The translations under genes were made by a program, and so were the position numbers. From Gammaproteobacteria bacterium (lineage in GTDB: Bacteria > Pseudomonadota > Gammaproteobacteria > Pseudomonadales > Pseudohongiellaceae), in NCBI GenBank assembly GCA_028818225.1, contig JAPPOG010000062.1, positions 1 through 64,000 on the forward strand: a stretch of DNA of 64,000 bases, in the 5' to 3' direction. A model generated the notes under the pieces. The model did not search any database and had not been told where the DNA came from. It saw nothing but the letters and a program-made list of their open reading frames with translations. Positions 55,188 through 64,000 of the stretch are shown one piece after another. The stretch's first letter is position 1, and the number at the start of each line of letters is the position of its first letter.

Positions 55188-55342
55188 CAGGGAAATCTCG
55201 AAGCGCAGAAAAATTAATTCCTTAGAATCAACATATTACAGTGGACGCGCCCCACGCACCAACGGGTGGAAAGAAGAATTTGCAATACTTCAAGGGACTT
55301 GGCAACCTTATGCTGTCTCTAACTAATATCAGAGGATTGAGT

Positions 55343-56923
55343 ATGAAAAACCGCATCTCATCGGCTGTTCTTATAGCGCTCTTTTTCAGTCTTTCGTTTA
55401 GCTTGAACGGCGCAGAGTTTGAGCGAGTAGGGACTTATGATTTCCCTTCGACGCTTGCACCCGAAGCACAAGAACACTTCCTCCTGGGAGTAGGCTATCT
55501 CCATAGCTTTGGCAGTACCCAGGCTCAGCGGGAATTTCGCTTGGTCCAGGAACTTGATCCAGATTTTGTGCTGGGTTACTGGGGTGAGGCATTTACCTAT
55601 CAGCATCCATTCTTTGGACCAAAGCATGATGGCCCCGGCGAAACTCTGATGCGACTGGGTGCCACTGCTGAAGAACGCCACGCCAAGGCAAGAAATGATA
55701 AAGAGTTGGGTTTCCTAAAAGCGGCCGAAGCCTATGCTCTTACCGTAGGTGATATGCCAGAACGACGCGTCGCCTGGAAAAATGCCATGGCTGAGCTGTA
55801 TGAGAAATATCCTGAAGATGACGAAGTAAAAGCTTTTTATGCAGTATCGATTCTTTCTGCTGCAGGAGCCTCAGGTGACATGGCGCCTCGCATGCGGATG
55901 CAAGCCGGCGCACTGGCTATGGAACTCTTTAAGAAAAATGATAATCATCCAGGTGCTGCACATTATGTAATTCACGCTTTCGATGATCCGGAACATGCCC
56001 CGATAGCGCTGGAAGCCGCCTTCAAATATGCAGACATTGCTCCTGCCGTTTCCCATGCGCGACACATGCCTACTCATATTTTTATTCAACACGGCAAATG
56101 GAATGAAGTAGCGCTGTGGAATGAATCTGCCTATCAAGTAGCGCGCGAGCTTTGGCAACCAGGTGATGCGGTTGGCGAGCAAAACCATGCCACTGATTGG
56201 GGACAGTATGGTGATCTGCAAATGGGGGACGTAGCACGATCCGAACGCTGGATAGCAAGAGCCGAAGAAACCCTGAGCGAAAACCCCGGTGATACTCGCT
56301 CAATCAGCACTCTCAAAACAGTAAAAGCTCGACACATTATCGAAACCGAACAGTGGGAGTTACAGGAAATAAATGACGACCTGTCCGGCGATCAGTTGCT
56401 GGCCTTGGGTCTTAGTGCAATTAACCTGGGTGATGCTGAATTGGCGCAACAAGTGGCCGATCGAATGGCAGTCCTGCTTGAAGAAAGCCCAAACAACAGC
56501 GCTTTGAAAGTTGCACACTTAGAAGTGGCCGGTTTGTCCCAATTGTTAGGCTCTCATGATTCGAGTGGTCCCGTTGCCATGCAGATGCAAGAGGCAGGAA
56601 TAGCAATGCTTGATGAGGCCGTTGCACTGGCTAATGCTGGCCCGCTGCCGCGCGGCGCCGCTACGCCTCTCAAACCAGCGCATGAAGTCGCAGGTGATGC
56701 CTATCTGCATGCGGGTAATGCTGAAAAAGCGGCGGCACTTTTTGAACAATCCTTATTACGCACTCCAAATCGTCCCCATTCACTCATAGGCGCAGCCCGT
56801 GCCTATGACCAGATGAATGAGGTTTCCAAAGCAGCAGACATGTACATTGCCCTGCTAGGTATATGGAACGACGATAGCCATCCTGCAGTTCAGGAAGCGA
56901 AAAAGTATCTTTCATATAACTAA
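55343..56923 (+). CDS. Secreted tetratricopeptide-repeat protein
   Basis: The start at 55343 is chosen because AGAGGATTGAGT lies just upstream and it gives a signal peptide at once (about residues 1-24). The 526-residue product is almost entirely alpha-helical TPR-like repeats, with recognisable units around TQAQREFRLVQELDPDFVLGYWG and the C-terminal AEKAAALFEQSLLRTPNRPHSLIGAARAYDQMN. A His-rich central stretch (HPGAAHYVIHAFDDPEHAP, then SHARHMPTHIFIQHGKW) is unusual and may bind a metal or cofactor. TPR domains mediate protein contacts. It stands 14 bp upstream of the sulfite dehydrogenase gene, so it may assist that complex. Confidence 0.8.
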   Translation: MKNRISSAVLIALFFSLSFSLNGAEFERVGTYDFPSTLAPEAQEHFLLGVGYLHSFGSTQAQREFRLVQELDPDFVLGYWGEAFTYQHPFFGPKHDGPGETLMRLGATAEERHAKARNDKELGFLKAAEAYALTVGDMPERRVAWKNAMAELYEKYPEDDEVKAFYAVSILSAAGASGDMAPRMRMQAGALAMELFKKNDNHPGAAHYVIHAFDDPEHAPIALEAAFKYADIAPAVSHARHMPTHIFIQHGKWNEVALWNESAYQVARELWQPGDAVGEQNHATDWGQYGDLQMGDVARSERWIARAEETLSENPGDTRSISTLKTVKARHIIETEQWELQEINDDLSGDQLLALGLSAINLGDAELAQQVADRMAVLLEESPNNSALKVAHLEVAGLSQLLGSHDSSGPVAMQMQEAGIAMLDEAVALANAGPLPRGAATPLKPAHEVAGDAYLHAGNAEKAAALFEQSLLRTPNRPHSLIGAARAYDQMNEVSKAADMYIALLGIWNDDSHPAVQEAKKYLSYN

Positions 56924-56937
56924 ATGGGTTGGGCAAG

Positions 56938-58209
56938 ATGACCGAGAAGAAGCTTGAAAAAGTCGCTGGCAACGGGCTCATTAGCCGGCGGCACTTATTG
57001 GGCATGGGAGCTACCGGAGTTGGATTAGCGGCGTCGAATAGTGTACTTGGCCAGAATTCTGGTATTAACTTCGAGATACCAGGATGGTCCCGCACTCCTG
57101 GACCCGGCCCAAGCAATTACGGCAGTCGTTCCAGATATACTGCAGCTGTTCAACGCTCTACAGCGTTTCAAAACCCTACCTATCCCGGAGGCGGCGCGTC
57201 CCGATCTCCATTGCAACATCTGCAGGGAACCATCACCCCAAACGCGCTCCATTTTGAAAGACATCATGCTGGTATTCCAGACATTGACCCGGCAGGACAT
57301 AAACTGGTCATCAATGGATTGGTGCGCCAGGCTCTGGCTTTTAGCTATGAAGATCTTCTGAAGTATCCAATGGTTAGCAGCGTCTATTTTCTCGAGTGTG
57401 CCGGAAACAGCGGTGCCTTGCTCCGCGGTGGAAATGAAGACGGTACCGCCCAGAGTATTCACGGCCTGGTATCTTGTGCGGAATGGACAGGTATTCCCTT
57501 GTCGACCCTTTTAGATGAAGCCGGAGTGCTGCCTGAAGCGAGATGGGTGGCTGCAGTGGGAGCCGATGCCGCCAGCATGGGAAGATCAATACCAATCGAA
57601 AAAGCGCTGGACGATGTTATGGTTGCGCTGTTTCAGAATGGTGAGCCGGTAATGCCAGGGCAAGGATATCCCATGCGCTTGTTCGTGCCAGGATGGGAAG
57701 GAAACATCAGCGTTAAGTGGTTAACTCAAATTAAACTGACCCGTGCCGCTGCTCAATTCAGGGATGAAACAAGCAAGTATTCCGACACTCTGCCGGATCG
57801 TTCCAGTTACCAGTTTACTTTCCCCATGGGAACGAAATCCCTGATTACCTCCCCCTCGGGTCAAATGTCCCTGCGTAATGCAGGAATTTATCAGATCACA
57901 GGTATAGCCTGGAGCGGCAGTGGCAGCATCAGTCGAGTTGAAGTAAGCGCAGACGGCGGCCAAACCTGGGCCGACGCATCGATACAGGGATTACAACTTG
58001 ATAAGGCGCTGACTCGTTTCACCATCCCATGGGAATGGAATGGCGGTCCGGCAGTGCTGCAAAGTCGAGCTACGGACAGCCGAGGCAATGTCCAGCCGAC
58101 TCGAGATGTCATTCTGGCAGAAAGAGGCAACATTAGTTTTTATCACAACCACTGTATTCAGAGTTGGGCTGTAAGTAATTCCGGTGAGGTAACAAACGTT
58201 TATGTATAA
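56938..58209 (+). CDS. soxC: SoxC-type molybdopterin sulfite dehydrogenase
   Basis: The 423-residue protein has a twin-arginine signal (ISRRHLLGMGATGVG) as expected for a cofactor-loaded periplasmic molybdoenzyme. The Mo ligand Cys is C154 in FLECAGNSGALL. Segments GITPNALHFERHH (written TPNALHFERHH), VPGWEGNISVKWLTQIKL and the C-terminal immunoglobulin-like dimer domain (VEVSADGGQTWADA) match SoxC. ATG 56938 is preferred to TTG 56929. It oxidises sulfite to sulfate, passing electrons to the haem c subunit whose gene overlaps its 3' end by eight bases. The rest of the Sox system (soxXYZAB) is not in the window. Confidence 0.9.
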   Translation: MTEKKLEKVAGNGLISRRHLLGMGATGVGLAASNSVLGQNSGINFEIPGWSRTPGPGPSNYGSRSRYTAAVQRSTAFQNPTYPGGGASRSPLQHLQGTITPNALHFERHHAGIPDIDPAGHKLVINGLVRQALAFSYEDLLKYPMVSSVYFLECAGNSGALLRGGNEDGTAQSIHGLVSCAEWTGIPLSTLLDEAGVLPEARWVAAVGADAASMGRSIPIEKALDDVMVALFQNGEPVMPGQGYPMRLFVPGWEGNISVKWLTQIKLTRAAAQFRDETSKYSDTLPDRSSYQFTFPMGTKSLITSPSGQMSLRNAGIYQITGIAWSGSGSISRVEVSADGGQTWADASIQGLQLDKALTRFTIPWEWNGGPAVLQSRATDSRGNVQPTRDVILAERGNISFYHNHCIQSWAVSNSGEVTNVYV

Positions 58210-58741
58210 GAAAATAGTTTTTCCCCTATTGGCAATTTGTATTGCTTTAAATTCTCTGGTTGTTAACTCGCAAGAAAGAGTGCGCCTTGGCACTCCCATT
58301 TCGGAAGCTGATCTTGAGGGATTTGACCTGATAGCTGAACCCGATGGATCCGGTTTTCCATCGGGCGGCGGCACAGCCAGGCAAGGAAAGGCAGTTTATG
58401 ACATCAATTGTGCCGTTTGCCATGGTGCCAATGGTGAGGGCACTTCAGGTAATACCATAATTGTTGGTGGCGATATGCAATCTGAAGGACCTCCCCTGCG
58501 AACCGTAGGCAGTTACTGGCCTTACGCCAGCACGGTTTTCGATTTCATTCGCCGCGCAATGCCGGCAACAGCACCCAAGTCGCTTACTAATGCGCAGGTA
58601 TACCAGGTAACTGCCTACATTTTGTTTATGAATGGCATTATCGGTGAAGACACCGAGTTAAATGCCAATACCCTGGTAAATATCGAAATGCCGAATGCCG
58701 ATGGCTTTGTCGATCGTAGTCATATTCACTCAATAGAATAA
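58202..58741 (+). CDS. Haem c subunit of sulfite dehydrogenase (short SoxD-like)
   Basis: The 179-residue protein has a signal peptide (about 1-22). Its haem c motif is C70-A-V-C-H74; the likely distal Met is in RRAMPATAPKSLTNAQVYQVTAYILFMN, a typical class I cytochrome C-terminus. SoxD itself is about twice as long with two domains, so this is a short variant like the c subunit in many SoxC-type pairs. The overlap with soxC shows a paired unit. A terminator follows 14 bp after the stop. Confidence 0.88.
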   Translation: MYKKIVFPLLAICIALNSLVVNSQERVRLGTPISEADLEGFDLIAEPDGSGFPSGGGTARQGKAVYDINCAVCHGANGEGTSGNTIIVGGDMQSEGPPLRTVGSYWPYASTVFDFIRRAMPATAPKSLTNAQVYQVTAYILFMNGIIGEDTELNANTLVNIEMPNADGFVDRSHIHSIE

Positions 58742-58754
58742 ATTTAAGGTACGG

Positions 58755-58779
58755 AAAAGGGCGCTCAGACGCCTTTTTT
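58755..58779 (+). terminator. Rho-independent terminator after sulfite dehydrogenase genes
   Basis: A stem built from AAAAGGGCG (58755-58763) and CGCCTTTTTT (58770-58779) with a six-base loop ends in a T-run. It closes the TPR-soxC-cytochrome transcript. Confidence 0.85.
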
Positions 58780-59025
58780 CTATCGCGAGATAATGCTGGC
58801 AGGAGCTAAGGCAAACCCCGATTAGCTGAAAACATCACCTTCGTCAGGAAGAATTGCTGCCTGCACCAAAAAGCACTACGGAATCAGCCAGACAGTAATC
58901 CGTCACAGCACAATCATTCAATTGCGCTAAATCAAACTCCATACTAAATCCGATTTACCCTAGGGAATTCCGGTTAGCTTCTGGGTTAGAATCTGCAAAT
59001 CGCACTACTTGTATAGCTCCAGATC

Positions 59026-59775
59026 ATGATCTTCCAGCAATTGTTTGAACCTCTCTCCAATTCTTACACCTATCTATTTGGCTGCGAAGAAACTGGCAAG
59101 GCGGTATTAGTCGATCCGGTAGTGCCTACACTGGAGAGAGACCTTGAAGCGATCAGCAAGCTGGGCATGAAGCTAGTCTCCACGCTCGAAACTCATATCC
59201 ATGCAGATCACATTACGGCGGCATTAGCTTTAAGAGAAGCTGTTAATTGCAAGATTGGTTTTCCCGCAATCGACAATCTTCCCTGCGCCGACATCCATAT
59301 AAAAGACGAAGAACCGCTGCGCTTTGGCTCAATTGCGATAAATCCAATCTTCACCCCGGGACATACTGACGACCATTTCAGTTTCCTGGTAAACGATAAG
59401 TTGCTTAGTGGCGACAGCTTGTTAATTGATGGCTGCGGTCGAACAGATTTCCAGAATGGCGATGCAGCAATACTTTATAGAAGCATTACGGAAAAACTGT
59501 TTAGGCTACCAGATGAAACTCTGGTCTATCCTGGTCACGACTACAATGCCAGATGGGTATCCAGCATTGCCCAGGAAAAAGCGAGAAACTCCCGAATCGC
59601 CATTGGCACTTCAGAAGCCCAGTTCGTCAAAACCATGGCAGAGCTAAAACTTCCTCACCCGAATTTTATTGATTATGCCGTCCCGGGAAATCTACTCTGC
59701 GGACAATGCCCAAGCGATCTTCCAGAAAATATGGAAAAGTACTGCCAGCAAATGACTGAGAGCCCGCAGGGTTAG
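59026..59775 (+). CDS. ETHE1-type persulfide dioxygenase (MBL fold)
   Basis: The 249-residue protein has the MBL motif THIHADHITAA, further ligands in FTPGHTDDHFSF, LLSGDSLLIDGCGRTDFQNGD and the family's VYPGHDYN. The CGRTDFQNGD segment is diagnostic for the ETHE1/persulfide dioxygenase branch, in which a mononuclear iron oxidises glutathione persulfide to sulfite. It is next to SoxC-type sulfite dehydrogenase, so the sulfite formed would be oxidised to sulfate. No sulfide:quinone reductase or rhodanese lies in the window. It is separated from soxC and its cytochrome by a terminator, so it is a distinct transcript. Confidence 0.93.
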   Translation: MIFQQLFEPLSNSYTYLFGCEETGKAVLVDPVVPTLERDLEAISKLGMKLVSTLETHIHADHITAALALREAVNCKIGFPAIDNLPCADIHIKDEEPLRFGSIAINPIFTPGHTDDHFSFLVNDKLLSGDSLLIDGCGRTDFQNGDAAILYRSITEKLFRLPDETLVYPGHDYNARWVSSIAQEKARNSRIAIGTSEAQFVKTMAELKLPHPNFIDYAVPGNLLCGQCPSDLPENMEKYCQQMTESPQG

Positions 59776-59777
59776 AG

Positions 59778-60290
59778 CTACGCCATACGTTTCAGGAACG
59801 GTTGTTTATCAATGAACTGGTGCTTGATCGCCGCCAGAATATGTAGCGCGATAAGCGCCAGAAATATCTTTGATGCAACATTGTGAATCAGGTTGAACAG
59901 AGCCATTAGTGATTCATTGTGCCCTGCTGTGATATTCACAACTCCGAACACTCTGACATCTTGCTCGAAGAACACGCCCTGTAAAATTCCAGTTAGCGCC
60001 ATAACTGCCACCAGAATATAAAAAGCCAAATGAATGCGCACACTCCAGGTTTGTTCCCAGGACCTCAGGCTCGACATTGGCTGAACCAAGTTTTTGCGCC
60101 GTTTCGAGTAACGCCACATCATCAAGGCAAAAATGATCAGGGCGCCTCCTGAATGAAACATGAGAATCATGCCCTTTTGCTCACCTTCCGATGATGCAGC
60201 GAGTTGTCCGGAAACCAAGAGCCAGAATGAAACCAGAACCGCTAACAGCCAGTGCAGAACTTTTTGACCACGAGTATAGGAATCAGCCAT
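59778..60290 (-). CDS. Cytochrome b561-family membrane protein
   Basis: The 170-residue protein has four transmembrane helices. Haem b-ligating His residues are in KVLHWLLAVLV (helix 1), MFHSGGALIIF (helix 2), SVRIHLAFYI (helix 3) and ALIALHILAAIKHQF (helix 4), the bacterial b561 pattern. It transfers electrons between quinol and periplasmic or cytoplasmic partners. It converges on the persulfide dioxygenase gene with a 2-bp gap. Confidence 0.9.
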   Translation of the reverse strand: MADSYTRGQKVLHWLLAVLVSFWLLVSGQLAASSEGEQKGMILMFHSGGALIIFALMMWRYSKRRKNLVQPMSSLRSWEQTWSVRIHLAFYILVAVMALTGILQGVFFEQDVRVFGVVNITAGHNESLMALFNLIHNVASKIFLALIALHILAAIKHQFIDKQPFLKRMA

Positions 60291-60472: not shown

Positions 60473-62161
60473 ATGGCTGGACTTCTCTCCAAAGAACGCA
60501 TTATTGCGCCTGCTGATTACAACCGTTGGCGTGTTCCCGTGGCTTCCGTGGCGATCCATTTATGTATTGGATCTGTCTACGCCTGGAGCATTTACAACCC
60601 TCCCCTCACTCGAGTTCATGGCGTAGTTACCAGCTCGGCCAATGACTGGAGTCTGAGCGCCGTGGTGTGGGTGTTTACCGTTGCCATTGTTTCGCTTGGA
60701 TTAGCTGCGGCATTTGCGGGCAAATGGTTAGAAGAAGCCGGGCCTCGCAAGGTCGGCGTGGTTGCTGCCTGCTGCTGGGGCGGCGGCTACCTGGTGGGTG
60801 CAATAGGAATATTTACTCATCAATTGTGGTTACTGTATTTGGGGTATGGCGTGATTGGAGGAGTCGGCCTCGGCATGGGCTATGTGTCTCCAGTAAGCAC
60901 TCTCATTCGTTGGTTCCCTGATCGGCGCGGTATGGCCACGGGCATGGCCATTATGGGATTTGGTGGTGGCGCCATGATCGGTACGCCCATGAAAGAATTC
61001 TTAATTCGTACTTTCTATCGTGCTCCCGAATATCTTGGAACCGTTGCTGATGTAGACCTGGTAACCGAGGCAGGACGCCGATTCGCGGAAATCGGCGGCA
61101 GCTTAAGAGAAGTGGTTGTAGTCGGTGCTGCGGAAGTCCGGGATATGACTGTACCCGGGCCGGAAGGCGTTTATGTTGTAGAGACAGGCGCTGCAGGGGT
61201 TGGCGAAGCTTTCGTGGTTATTGGACTGATTTATTTAGTAGTCATGTTGCTGGCAGCATTCTCTTATCGGATACCTGCAGAAGGCTGGAAACCTGCAGGA
61301 TGGGTAGAACCAAGCGAAGAAGAAAGAGGCGCATTGATTTCAAGCCACAATGTCCATATCGATGAGGCTCTCAAGACACGGCAGTTTTATCAGTTATGGA
61401 TTGTGCTTTGTTTTAATGTGACGGCTGGTATCGGGGTGCTGGGGGTAGCCCGCACCATGATTACAGAAATATTTGGATCATCGCTGCCCCAGGTGGTGGA
61501 TACTGCTTTTGCTGCAACTTATGTAGTAATGATTAGTGCATTTAACATGGTCGGAAGATTTATCTGGGCCAGCACGTCAGACTACATTGGGAGACGAACC
61601 ACTTATTGGATATTTTTCGCTCTGGGCATTGTTCTCTATCTTTCAGTACCAATAACTGCGCAGCAAGTAAGTGTAAATCCATCGGTTGTCTGGTTAGTTT
61701 ACTTCTACGCAGCAACGATGATTATTTTTACAATGTATGGAGGTGGGTTTGCCACTATCCCTGCCTACCTTGCCGATATTTTTGGCACTAAATATGTAGG
61801 CGGAATTCATGGACGCTTGTTGACGGCATGGAGTACTGCCGGTGTTCTAGGTCCACTGGCAATTACTTCTTTGCGTCAAAACTCGGTTAACAATGCCATT
61901 GATGATCTCGTATCCGTGGTGGATCCATCGGCATTTCAGGCACAGTTCGGTGCCGGCATAGATCAACTGGAAGCACTGGTCGCTTCAAACACCGTAACTA
62001 TTTCCAGATTAATGGAGATTGCCCCTGCTGGAACAACAGACCCAACCAGCAGTCTATATAACTCGACGATGGTATTAATGGCCGCACTGTTGGCTATTGC
62101 TTTGGTAAGCAATGCATTGATGCGACCAGTGGATCCGAAACACCACCTGATAGAAAATTAA
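60473..62161 (+). CDS. OFA-family (oxalate/formate-type) MFS transporter
   Basis: The 562-residue protein has twelve transmembrane segments. The OFA signature is visible: IHLCIGSVYAWSIYNPPLTR at helix 1, GGVGLGMGYVSPVSTLIRWFPDRRGMATGMAIMGFGGGAMIG, and GGGFATIPAYLADIFGTKYVGGIHGRLLTAWSTAGVLGP in the second half. It has an extra loop of roughly 70 residues (about 190-255) between helices and another near 480-530, making it longer than most family members (about 400-430). Members exchange organic anions such as oxalate/formate or import sulfite-like and lactate-type substrates. The substrate is not determined. Confidence 0.88.
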   Translation: MAGLLSKERIIAPADYNRWRVPVASVAIHLCIGSVYAWSIYNPPLTRVHGVVTSSANDWSLSAVVWVFTVAIVSLGLAAAFAGKWLEEAGPRKVGVVAACCWGGGYLVGAIGIFTHQLWLLYLGYGVIGGVGLGMGYVSPVSTLIRWFPDRRGMATGMAIMGFGGGAMIGTPMKEFLIRTFYRAPEYLGTVADVDLVTEAGRRFAEIGGSLREVVVVGAAEVRDMTVPGPEGVYVVETGAAGVGEAFVVIGLIYLVVMLLAAFSYRIPAEGWKPAGWVEPSEEERGALISSHNVHIDEALKTRQFYQLWIVLCFNVTAGIGVLGVARTMITEIFGSSLPQVVDTAFAATYVVMISAFNMVGRFIWASTSDYIGRRTTYWIFFALGIVLYLSVPITAQQVSVNPSVVWLVYFYAATMIIFTMYGGGFATIPAYLADIFGTKYVGGIHGRLLTAWSTAGVLGPLAITSLRQNSVNNAIDDLVSVVDPSAFQAQFGAGIDQLEALVASNTVTISRLMEIAPAGTTDPTSSLYNSTMVLMAALLAIALVSNALMRPVDPKHHLIEN

Positions 62162-62167
62162 GCTGGC

Positions 62168-62383
62168 TTAGGAAAGTAACTCGGCGATTTCTCCCTCGTT
62201 GGGGAATCTGCCGAGCTTATGCTTGGAAAATATGAGCGTACCGTCGCGCTTCACGTCGAAGATACCCCCACCTCCAGCAATTAAAACAGCATCGACTCCA
62301 ACCGCTTCTTTGATTTCAGCCGACACACGGTCAGCATCGGGTTGGTAGTTTCATGCCATGCAATAGGTGATTTCAATTTCCAT
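62168..62383 (-). CDS. SelW-like selenoprotein with in-frame UGA (CxxU)
   Basis: From ATG 62383 (GGGGGTAAAT upstream) the minus strand reads MEIEITYCMA, then TGA (62351-62353), then NYQPDADRVSAEIKEAVGV, DAVLIAGGGGIFDVKRDGTL, IFSKHKLGRFPNEGEIAELLS and TAA. The 71 residues match the SelT/SelW/SelH (Rdx) thioredoxin-like family over their whole length, including the C-x-x-C/U redox motif (C8, U11), GGGGIFDV and a KxGRFP end. The UGA stands exactly where the family has Cys or selenocysteine. A hairpin downstream fits a SECIS. The role is thiol redox, details unknown. The alternative, a Cys-to-stop mutation, cannot be excluded without selA/B/C/D. It converges on the OFA gene with a 6-bp gap. Confidence 0.85.
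62319..62335 (-). promoter_or_regulatory. Putative bacterial SECIS hairpin
   Basis: In the mRNA of the SelW-like gene, GCUGAC pairs with GUCGGC over 6 bp (one U-G pair) around the loop CGUGU. The stem begins 15 bases after the UGA and the loop 21 bases after it. This matches the published bacterial SECIS consensus of a short stem-loop about 16-37 bases downstream with a G among the first two loop positions. Confidence 0.6.
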
Positions 62384-62541
62384 AGGATTTACCCCCAAAT
62401 CATTACTTATTTATTAGACCCCAGTCCCGGAATGTTTGCAAAATCCTGAATAGGGGTGAATATGACACGAATTCCTGGCTCTTTTTCAGGTAACATGTTC
62501 ACGTAACCTACAAATCGTTTCAGTTTAAATGGACATTTACA

Positions 62542-64000
62542 ATGATTCCTTCGAAAACAATGCACTGGCGGTGGCCAGCTATTTTTCTAAGCACCCTCTC
62601 TCTTTCCTGTGCAGCGCAAGAAACGCCGCAGCGATGGTATGAAGAAGGTCGAGCTACAGTTGAGCGCAACCTTTCCTATCGTTATGCCAATACCGAAGTT
62701 CCAATAGCAAAAAATGTAATTTTATTTATCGGTGACGGCATGGGCGTTTCCACGGTTACCGCAGCACGCATACTTGCTGGACAGCTGGAAGGAAATCCTG
62801 GAGAAGAAAACCAATTGTTCTTTGAAACGTTTCCCAATGTTGCACTTTCCAAAACCTATAACACTGATGCGCAAGTTGCAGACTCTGCCGGTACCATGAC
62901 AGCAATGGCGACTGGTATTAAAACTGATCGCGGTATTATCAGCATTAACCAGAATGTCGAAAGAGGTGATTGCGATTCGGTAGCTGGCAATGAATTGCAA
63001 ACTTTTCTGGAAATGGCTGAACAGAAAGGAATGTCTACTGGTGTTGTTAGTACTGCCCGCCTTACTCATGCTACACCGGCTGCAAATTATGCCCATACCA
63101 TGGATCGTGATTTTGAAGATGACCGTGACGCTGAAAACATGCGCAATGCCGGAGATTGCCCGGATATTGCACGGCAGCTAATCGAGTTTATCGACAATGT
63201 ACCCGGCAGTGATGGTATTGAAGTTGCAATGGGTGGAGGTCGCAGAAGCTTTATTCCTCGAACGGATGGGGCAGATCCTGAAACCGGAGGACTGGGAGAG
63301 CGACTGGATGGCAGAAACCTTCCCCAGGAGTGGATTGAAGTTCACGATAATGCTGCGTATGTCTGGAACAAAGCACAGTTCGATGCAATCGACGCACGAA
63401 GCACAGATCATTTATTAGGACTGTTTAATCCATCCCATATGCAATACTCCTACGATACTCCCACCGATAGTGGTGGCGAACCTACACTGACGGAAATGAC
63501 TGCAAAAGCGATCGAAATTGTCAGTAAAAATGAACAGGGTTATTACCTGAACATCGAAGCAGGCAGAATTGATCACGCTCATCATGCGGTAAACCCCTTT
63601 CGCGCTTTACGGGATACCATTGAGTTCGCAAATGCTATTCAAACCGCCACCGAGATGGTTGACCTGAATGAAACCCTGATTATTGTGACTGCCGATCATA
63701 GTCACGTATTTACAATCGCGGGTTATCCAAAACGGGGTAATCCGATATTAGGTAAAGTAGTAGGCCTGGACGCTGCTGGTCAACCAAGAACAGAGCCTAG
63801 TCTTGCGCGGGATGGCCTGCCCTACACTACCCTTGGCTATGCCAACGGTCATGGCTTTGCGGAACTTCCGAACCGAAACACCGCCGATGCTATCTACACA
63901 GTTCCTGTAGAGGAACAGCGTCGTTATGATTTGAGCGAGGTAAACACCGAGCATGAGGGGTTCCATTCTGAATCTCTGATTCCACTAGCGGATGAAACAC
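62542..64000 (+). CDS. PhoA-type alkaline phosphatase, 3' partial
   Basis: The frame is open from ATG 62542 to the right edge, giving 486 codons so far. A signal peptide (about 1-23, ending SCAAQ) precedes NVILFIGDGMGVSTVTAARI, where Asp is a zinc/magnesium ligand. The phosphorylated Ser is S115 in QVADSAGTMTAMATG. Later metal-site segments are RLTHATPAANYAH, NIEAGRIDHAHHA and TADHSHVFT. The enzyme is a periplasmic phosphomonoesterase of the alkaline phosphatase superfamily. An insert region around residues 230-300 is larger than in E. coli PhoA. The C-terminus lies outside the window. Confidence 0.93.
   Translation, partial: MIPSKTMHWRWPAIFLSTLSLSCAAQETPQRWYEEGRATVERNLSYRYANTEVPIAKNVILFIGDGMGVSTVTAARILAGQLEGNPGEENQLFFETFPNVALSKTYNTDAQVADSAGTMTAMATGIKTDRGIISINQNVERGDCDSVAGNELQTFLEMAEQKGMSTGVVSTARLTHATPAANYAHTMDRDFEDDRDAENMRNAGDCPDIARQLIEFIDNVPGSDGIEVAMGGGRRSFIPRTDGADPETGGLGERLDGRNLPQEWIEVHDNAAYVWNKAQFDAIDARSTDHLLGLFNPSHMQYSYDTPTDSGGEPTLTEMTAKAIEIVSKNEQGYYLNIEAGRIDHAHHAVNPFRALRDTIEFANAIQTATEMVDLNETLIIVTADHSHVFTIAGYPKRGNPILGKVVGLDAAGQPRTEPSLARDGLPYTTLGYANGHGFAELPNRNTADAIYTVPVEEQRRYDLSEVNTEHEGFHSESLIPLADET

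Follow-up and report, generated by a model that had tools for sequence, protein, structure and literature searches.

Predicted SelW-like selenoprotein gene with an in-frame UGA and a covarying SECIS-like stem-loop in a gammaproteobacterial draft genome

The window analysed here, the whole stretch of 64,000 nucleotides, holds a short reading frame that is broken once by a TGA, and the question raised by this locus is whether that codon ends a protein, marks an error or is read as selenocysteine (Sec). The frame (62168..62383, minus strand, stop included) starts with an ATG at 62383, stops at 62168-62170 when the TGA is read through, and encodes 71 residues beginning MEIEITYC-MA-U-NYQP. The TGA (62351..62353, minus strand) is residue 11 and the sole interruption, with 60 codons downstream of it; according to the frame and the alignment it closes a C-M-A-U redox motif running from C8 to Sec11 (62351..62362, minus strand). 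An earlier, sequence-only reading of this DNA had left the strand unstated, the frame being on the minus strand, and had placed the TGA at the second position of the motif, which holds in the sense of the second redox position, C8-x-x-U11. A probable ribosome-binding site, GGGGGT (62391..62396, minus strand), lies 7 nt upstream of the ATG and, in agreement with the plausible site proposed earlier, the same-genus relative has AGGAGGT at the matching position. The Pfam model Rdx (PF10262) covered residues 2-70 of the read-through frame (E 3e-15, 56.6 bits against a cut-off of 22.6), which bears out both the proposed 71-residue Rdx/SelW frame with the TGA as its only break and the continuation of the family match for 60 residues past it. 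TIGR02174 was likewise above its cut-off (43.4 against 34.2 bits), while NF041051 (SelTWH_Campy), despite being the top-scoring NCBIfam model, missed its curated cut-off of 88 by three bits (84.8), so that by this measure the window protein is not a member.

For fold prediction with AlphaFold the window protein was aligned with 32 relatives (33 of the 81 sequences), which gave a model with a mean pLDDT of 95.6 in which the C8-Sec11 motif sits between a strand (3-8) and a helix (14-28). Structure comparison returned 22 PDB matches at E <0.001, all of them SelW-related bacterial proteins plus MIEN1 and headed by 2FA8 (TM 0.90), 2OBK and 2OKA, and a profile search of PDB sequences yielded the same SelW-related proteins. 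Judging from this model, the product would adopt the thioredoxin-like SelW fold. In a list of open reading frames with ATG, GTG or TTG starts and at least 50 aa, the gene is seen only as a 52-aa GTG-started fragment (62168-62326), and a gene caller that stops at TGA would therefore miss or truncate it, as had been anticipated. The same fragment speaks for a different reading, namely that the frame stops at the TGA or begins only at the GTG further down, in which case the C-terminal part would be a separate 52-residue protein. Since family match and predicted fold both take in the first strand and the CxxU upstream, and since the first 10 codons are conserved across relatives, such a split is very improbable.

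Relatives were collected by scanning genome contigs with a pattern built from ten aligned TGA forms, and the best 80 of 169 were kept, their titles naming Gammaproteobacteria, Planctomycetes, Verrucomicrobiales, Acidobacteria, Chloroflexi, Nitrospirae and others. The Sec position is TGA in every one of these best 80 of 169 (80/80), a set that leans towards the TGA subgroup and is not a random sample, since the scan pattern excludes the Sec site itself but derives from TGA forms. When the window gene is compared with its same-genus counterpart, most differences are at third codon positions; after the TGA they number 16, 13 and 37 at codon positions 1, 2 and 3 (p 2e-4 against equal shares), which is the pattern of a translated frame; as dS is saturated, no dN/dS ratio is given for this pair. 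The TGA could in principle be a nonsense mutation or a sequencing error in a CxxC gene that is decayed or misread, given that draft and MAG assemblies contain errors and that most Rdx matches of the order have no internal stop. Occurrence of the TGA at the same codon throughout the kept relatives, which come from many assemblies, the third-position bias behind it, and the Sec machinery and covarying stem-loop described below leave this explanation with hardly any probability. Decay in particular, which the sequence-only reading had coupled to Cys codons in close relatives as the outcome that would speak against it, is rejected on the 80/80 TGA of the kept relatives and the third-position bias past it. 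As a separate observation, one Planctomycetota homologue (L119:1267-1488) has a second TGA, at C8, in addition to that at Sec11, which makes it a UxxU form; its single contig is of very low coverage according to the title, and an error is possible. A phage or mobile origin was also considered and rejected, as none of 116 pattern matches in viral contigs was confirmed as a relative.

Decoding of the UGA as Sec calls attention to the remainder of the genome, a near-complete draft (3.47 Mb, 89 contigs, completeness 97.5%). The sequence-only reading had proposed a search for selA, selB, selD and tRNA-Sec, with lack of selB or tRNA-Sec counting against it, and all four genes are present. The gene for tRNA-Sec is found at one end of contig C28; it scored 62.4 bits (cut-off 47) and was also called as tRNA-Sec by ARAGORN, with anticodon tca; selB (398 bits) and selA (581 bits) lie on C17 and selD (281 bits) on C28, each above its cut-off. 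A protein encoded just ahead of this tRNA gene, near the same contig end (L009:18565-19419), resembles DUF547. The selenophosphate synthetase is fused behind a pyridine-nucleotide-disulphide oxidoreductase domain (L021:4861-7227, minus strand), the known Ndh-SelD arrangement, and PMC2398784 reports fusions of this kind, all of them carrying CxxC. Formate dehydrogenase was considered as the reason for Sec use and set aside, the over-cut-off FdhA match in this genome being without an internal stop.

The presence of the machinery follows the TGA form in other genomes as well. Across 293 genomes of the order, an Rdx match was found in 98, ten of them with one TGA inside the match. A selA gene over the cut-off occurred in 10/10 TGA-form genomes, compared to 12/88 TGA-free Rdx genomes and 39/293 overall (Fisher p 5e-8, a value that ignores relatedness, with eight of the ten TGA genomes belonging to one family). 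The 88 TGA-free genomes include G188, which is under the Pfam cut-off, and G085, whose match is split and holds a TAA. These ten genomes and the 80 loci overlap, the sequence of L063 being that of L062 and the records L116 and L133 those of L056 and L058. In the class, NF041051 matched in 51/369 genomes, with a TGA in two, the window's genome and G382. When the 47 of these 51 genomes not yet tested for selA were searched, G382 was over the cut-off, as was one of the 46 TGA-free genomes, four more of which gave only weak sub-cut-off matches; selA is thus found in all 11 TGA-form genomes examined in order and class. A near-cognate tRNA placing a standard residue at the UGA, or reassignment of the codon, would likewise keep the frame open. 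The probability of this is negligible in view of the tRNA-Sec, SelA, SelB and SelD encoded in the genome, the selA found with every TGA form, the location of the TGA at the redox position of the family and the covariation of the SECIS-like element. A further genome of the same genus, G081, has selA and no Rdx match, and its Sec machinery may be kept for other selenoproteins.

Following the UGA, a bacterial SECIS-like stem-loop was identified (62319..62335, minus strand), consisting of a 6-bp stem, GCUGAC/GUCGGC, and the loop CGUGU at a UGA-to-loop distance of 21 nt; counted from the T of the TGA, positions 19-24 pair with 30-35, leaving a 5-nt loop between them. The bacterial SECIS model, as set out in a section of the 2026 review PMC13188914, has a 3-9 nt loop, a 4-16 bp stem and a distance of 16-37 nt from the UGA, and further requires a G in the first two loop positions and an MFE of <= -7.5 kcal/mol. 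The window element lies within the limits for loop, stem, G and spacing (6 bp, CGUGU, 21 nt), and its conserved helix, at -7.8 kcal/mol, is within the energy limit. Thermodynamic folding on its own counts against the element: the MFE fold of a 50-nt window (-8.5 kcal/mol) has a shifted register, with a z of -1.23 and 27/200 shuffles as good, and the conserved helix has a pair probability of about 0.18 within that fold. RNAalifold on 68 aligned sequences recovered the helix in part (5 pairs, -1.95 kcal/mol), a loose bSECIS screen requiring a Cys near the TGA and an open frame was unspecific, with 15/2282 window TGAs passing, SelW included, and Rfam gave three matches on 61900-62600, all far under gathering.

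The stem-loop alignment comprised 68 of the 81 sequences, 13 near-duplicates having been dropped by eye; 94.6% of its 408 cells are paired, double changes occur in four of the six pairs, and in none of five measures was the observed covariation reached by any of 500 shuffles. All six pairs are formed in 47/68 rows, compared to a mean of 22 under synonymous shuffles that keep the protein, and the observed mean pairing was reached in 0/2000 such shuffles, which ignore relatedness. Stem positions 21 and 33 fall on third codon positions, in codons 17 and 21, and these codons encode Ala in 68/68 and 63/68 rows, respectively, with Ser at codon 21 in the window. Where both codons are Ala, the wobble positions pair in 62/63 rows with five pair types, a regularity that selection on the protein does not explain. 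Loop position 2 is G in 68/68 rows, and the first loop base is A in 54/68 and C in 3/68. In the window element itself all six pairs form, a result equalled by 434/20000 synonymous resamplings. As a control, 49 of 60 CxxC loci could be placed (the 11 unplaced include the TGA forms L144 and L148), of which none had six pairs, three had five, 15 had four and 31 had fewer; this control is imperfect since the CxxC forms look like a separate subgroup. The divergent TGA SelW of G382 (L148, TGA at 1525-1527), from another family of the class, has a stem of other sequence, GCUCUC/GAGAGC, of the same size and in the same place, with the loop CGUGC.

These results are best explained by a SelW-like Rdx selenoprotein gene in which codon 11, a UGA, is translated as Sec on the signal of the downstream stem-loop, a reading to which we assign a probability of roughly 96%. 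The claim of a selenoprotein in a Sec-inserting organism is supported by the machinery, the TGA in the 80/80 kept relatives, the third-position bias and the conserved SECIS-like helix. By this mechanism, SelB and Sec-tRNA-Sec would decode the UGA, directed by the short mRNA stem-loop right after it, and the product would be a thioredoxin-fold protein carrying a C-x-x-U redox pair ahead of helix 1. We infer both the insertion of Sec at codon 11 and a redox role of the Cys/Sec pair from sequence, and the protein would most likely be a small thiol/selenol oxidoreductase, perhaps glutathione-linked.

A more specific role had been suggested by the gene's surroundings, in which the selenoprotein would work as the redox partner of neighbouring persulfide and sulfite oxidation genes. 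The annotation of these neighbours held up in part: the SoxC-type sulfite dehydrogenase (56929-58209, plus strand) is over its cut-off (512 against 420 bits) and is followed by a cytochrome c (58202-58741, plus strand), while the identity of the protein taken for a persulfide dioxygenase, an MBL-fold protein (59026-59775, plus strand), is not established, no NCBIfam cut-off being passed by it (best GloB with 111 of 200.8 bits; the sulfur dioxygenase model Blh with 90 of 625). With SoxC, cytochrome c, the MBL-fold protein and a cytochrome b561, the region 55241-60290 is possibly a sulfur-oxidation cluster, apparently unrelated to SelW. The MBL-fold, SoxC-type and cytochrome c genes are 2.4-4.0 kb away, the one argument for a partnership, but they are on the opposite strand with an MFS transporter and the cytochrome b561 in between. 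All three are without a match in the 8.5-kb same-genus locus L063, which shares with the window an alkaline phosphatase on the 5' side. When neighbours were clustered over the window and the 80 loci, an MBL homologue was found near one relative (L103) and SoxC and cytochrome homologues near 0/80, an absence that is incomplete since 62 of the 80 relatives have at least 4 kb on the 3' side. The proposed partnership is thus not supported by this comparison and is very unlikely, and as far as this evidence goes the proximity is a chance of position. The largest neighbour clusters (19, 10, 6, 6, 6, 5 and 5 loci) are almost all gammaproteobacterial or Proteobacteria-titled, that of 19 loci linking several unlike proteins in a chain, together with some spurious ORFs. 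The sole identified small cluster spanning phyla is selB, which is over its NCBIfam cut-off and within 4 kb upstream of SelW in 3/80 relatives, titled Nitrospirae and Alphaproteobacteria (L102:743-2620, L113:317-2239 and L130:3078-4955, all minus strand); a partial selB match (44.5 bits) was seen in L111.

The SelW gene is not the only frame of this kind in the genome. Three other families were sought, which yielded seven more frames (L177-L183), each with one TGA and located in the genome (G000) at C73:41006-41371, C89:28160-28624, C57:21347-21742, C22:37705-38052, C73:68140-68499, C37:27239-27376 and C88:33-599. The TGA occurs in 5/21 AhpC/TSA-type matches (FTGG-U, DW-U-PYC, DW-U-PFC, SW-U-GC and HW-U-PYC), in one of eight AhpD-type matches (CFY-U, weak at 22.2 bits) and in one of five DsbA-type matches (I-U-PWC). 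Read from these motifs, the TGAs of the putative thiol oxidoreductases appear to stand at the redox Cys position, and TxxU, UxxC, CxxU and UGC motifs are tabulated for AhpC/TSA-, AhpD- and DsbA-like families in parts of PMC2398784 and PMC13188914. In SelW and in six of the seven further frames the UGA is followed by the loop CGUGN on stems of 4 bp or more that are unrelated to one another, the seventh frame having UGUUA, and of 4187 TGAs in the DNA of this genome covered by the CGUG-loop test two pass it, SelW being one; the test was defined after the genes had been seen, so that the contrast is informative and the exact rate is not. Within the order, the SelW genes of a neighbouring family (eight genomes) have the loop AGUUU or AGUCU. 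A possible, still doubtful explanation is a lineage-specific SECIS code, in which SelB and the loop would have diverged together and residues 19-20 would be fixed as Arg-Val, not Ser-Leu. What is new here, modestly, is a predicted selenoproteome of several genes with a nearly uniform SECIS loop.

Ordinary gene callers do not see the SelW gene, and the same holds for at least seven more frames of the genome; a standard annotation of this lineage therefore leaves out a set of thiol-redox proteins. Selenoproteins are rarely retained by aerobic bacteria, according to a passage of the 2026 review PMC13188914. At least eight selenoprotein genes are predicted in the present lineage, which would make it a useful counter-example provided that the organism is aerobic.

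Among known structures, the bacterial Rdx/SelW-related proteins 2FA8, 2OBK, 2OKA, 2P0G, 2OJL and 3DEX have the fold of the window model (query TM-score 0.81-0.92) at 23-32% identity. These six carry a CxxC motif. Rdx forms lacking the TGA, in both order and class, have W/F-x-LRA after the motif and look like another subgroup. Mouse SelW (2NPB) shares the Rdx fold and is a weaker structural match (TM 0.63, E 3.7e-3); its motif is CxxU. The eukaryotic SECIS is located in the 3' UTR, unlike the bacterial one, as stated in a part of PMC1088965. The closest known system is the bacterial SelW-like (SELENOW-like) family, PF10262, for which the 2026 review (PMC13188914) gives CxxU as the motif and, in the section concerned, a rating of predicted with high confidence. 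PMC1088965 puts SelW-like proteins first in abundance among the families of the Sargasso Sea data and reports an interaction with glutathione, calling the function unclear; a table in PMC2398784 places the family at the top of the GOS marine data with 427 sequences and 56 Cys homologues, and, according to PMC1794560, organisms that contain Sec have few Cys homologues of it, if any. The window gene is like this family in its domain, its CxxU and a SECIS after the UGA, and differs in lineage and in its SECIS loop, CGUGU; it is an addition to the already known SelW-like CxxU family that is abundant in marine metagenomes.
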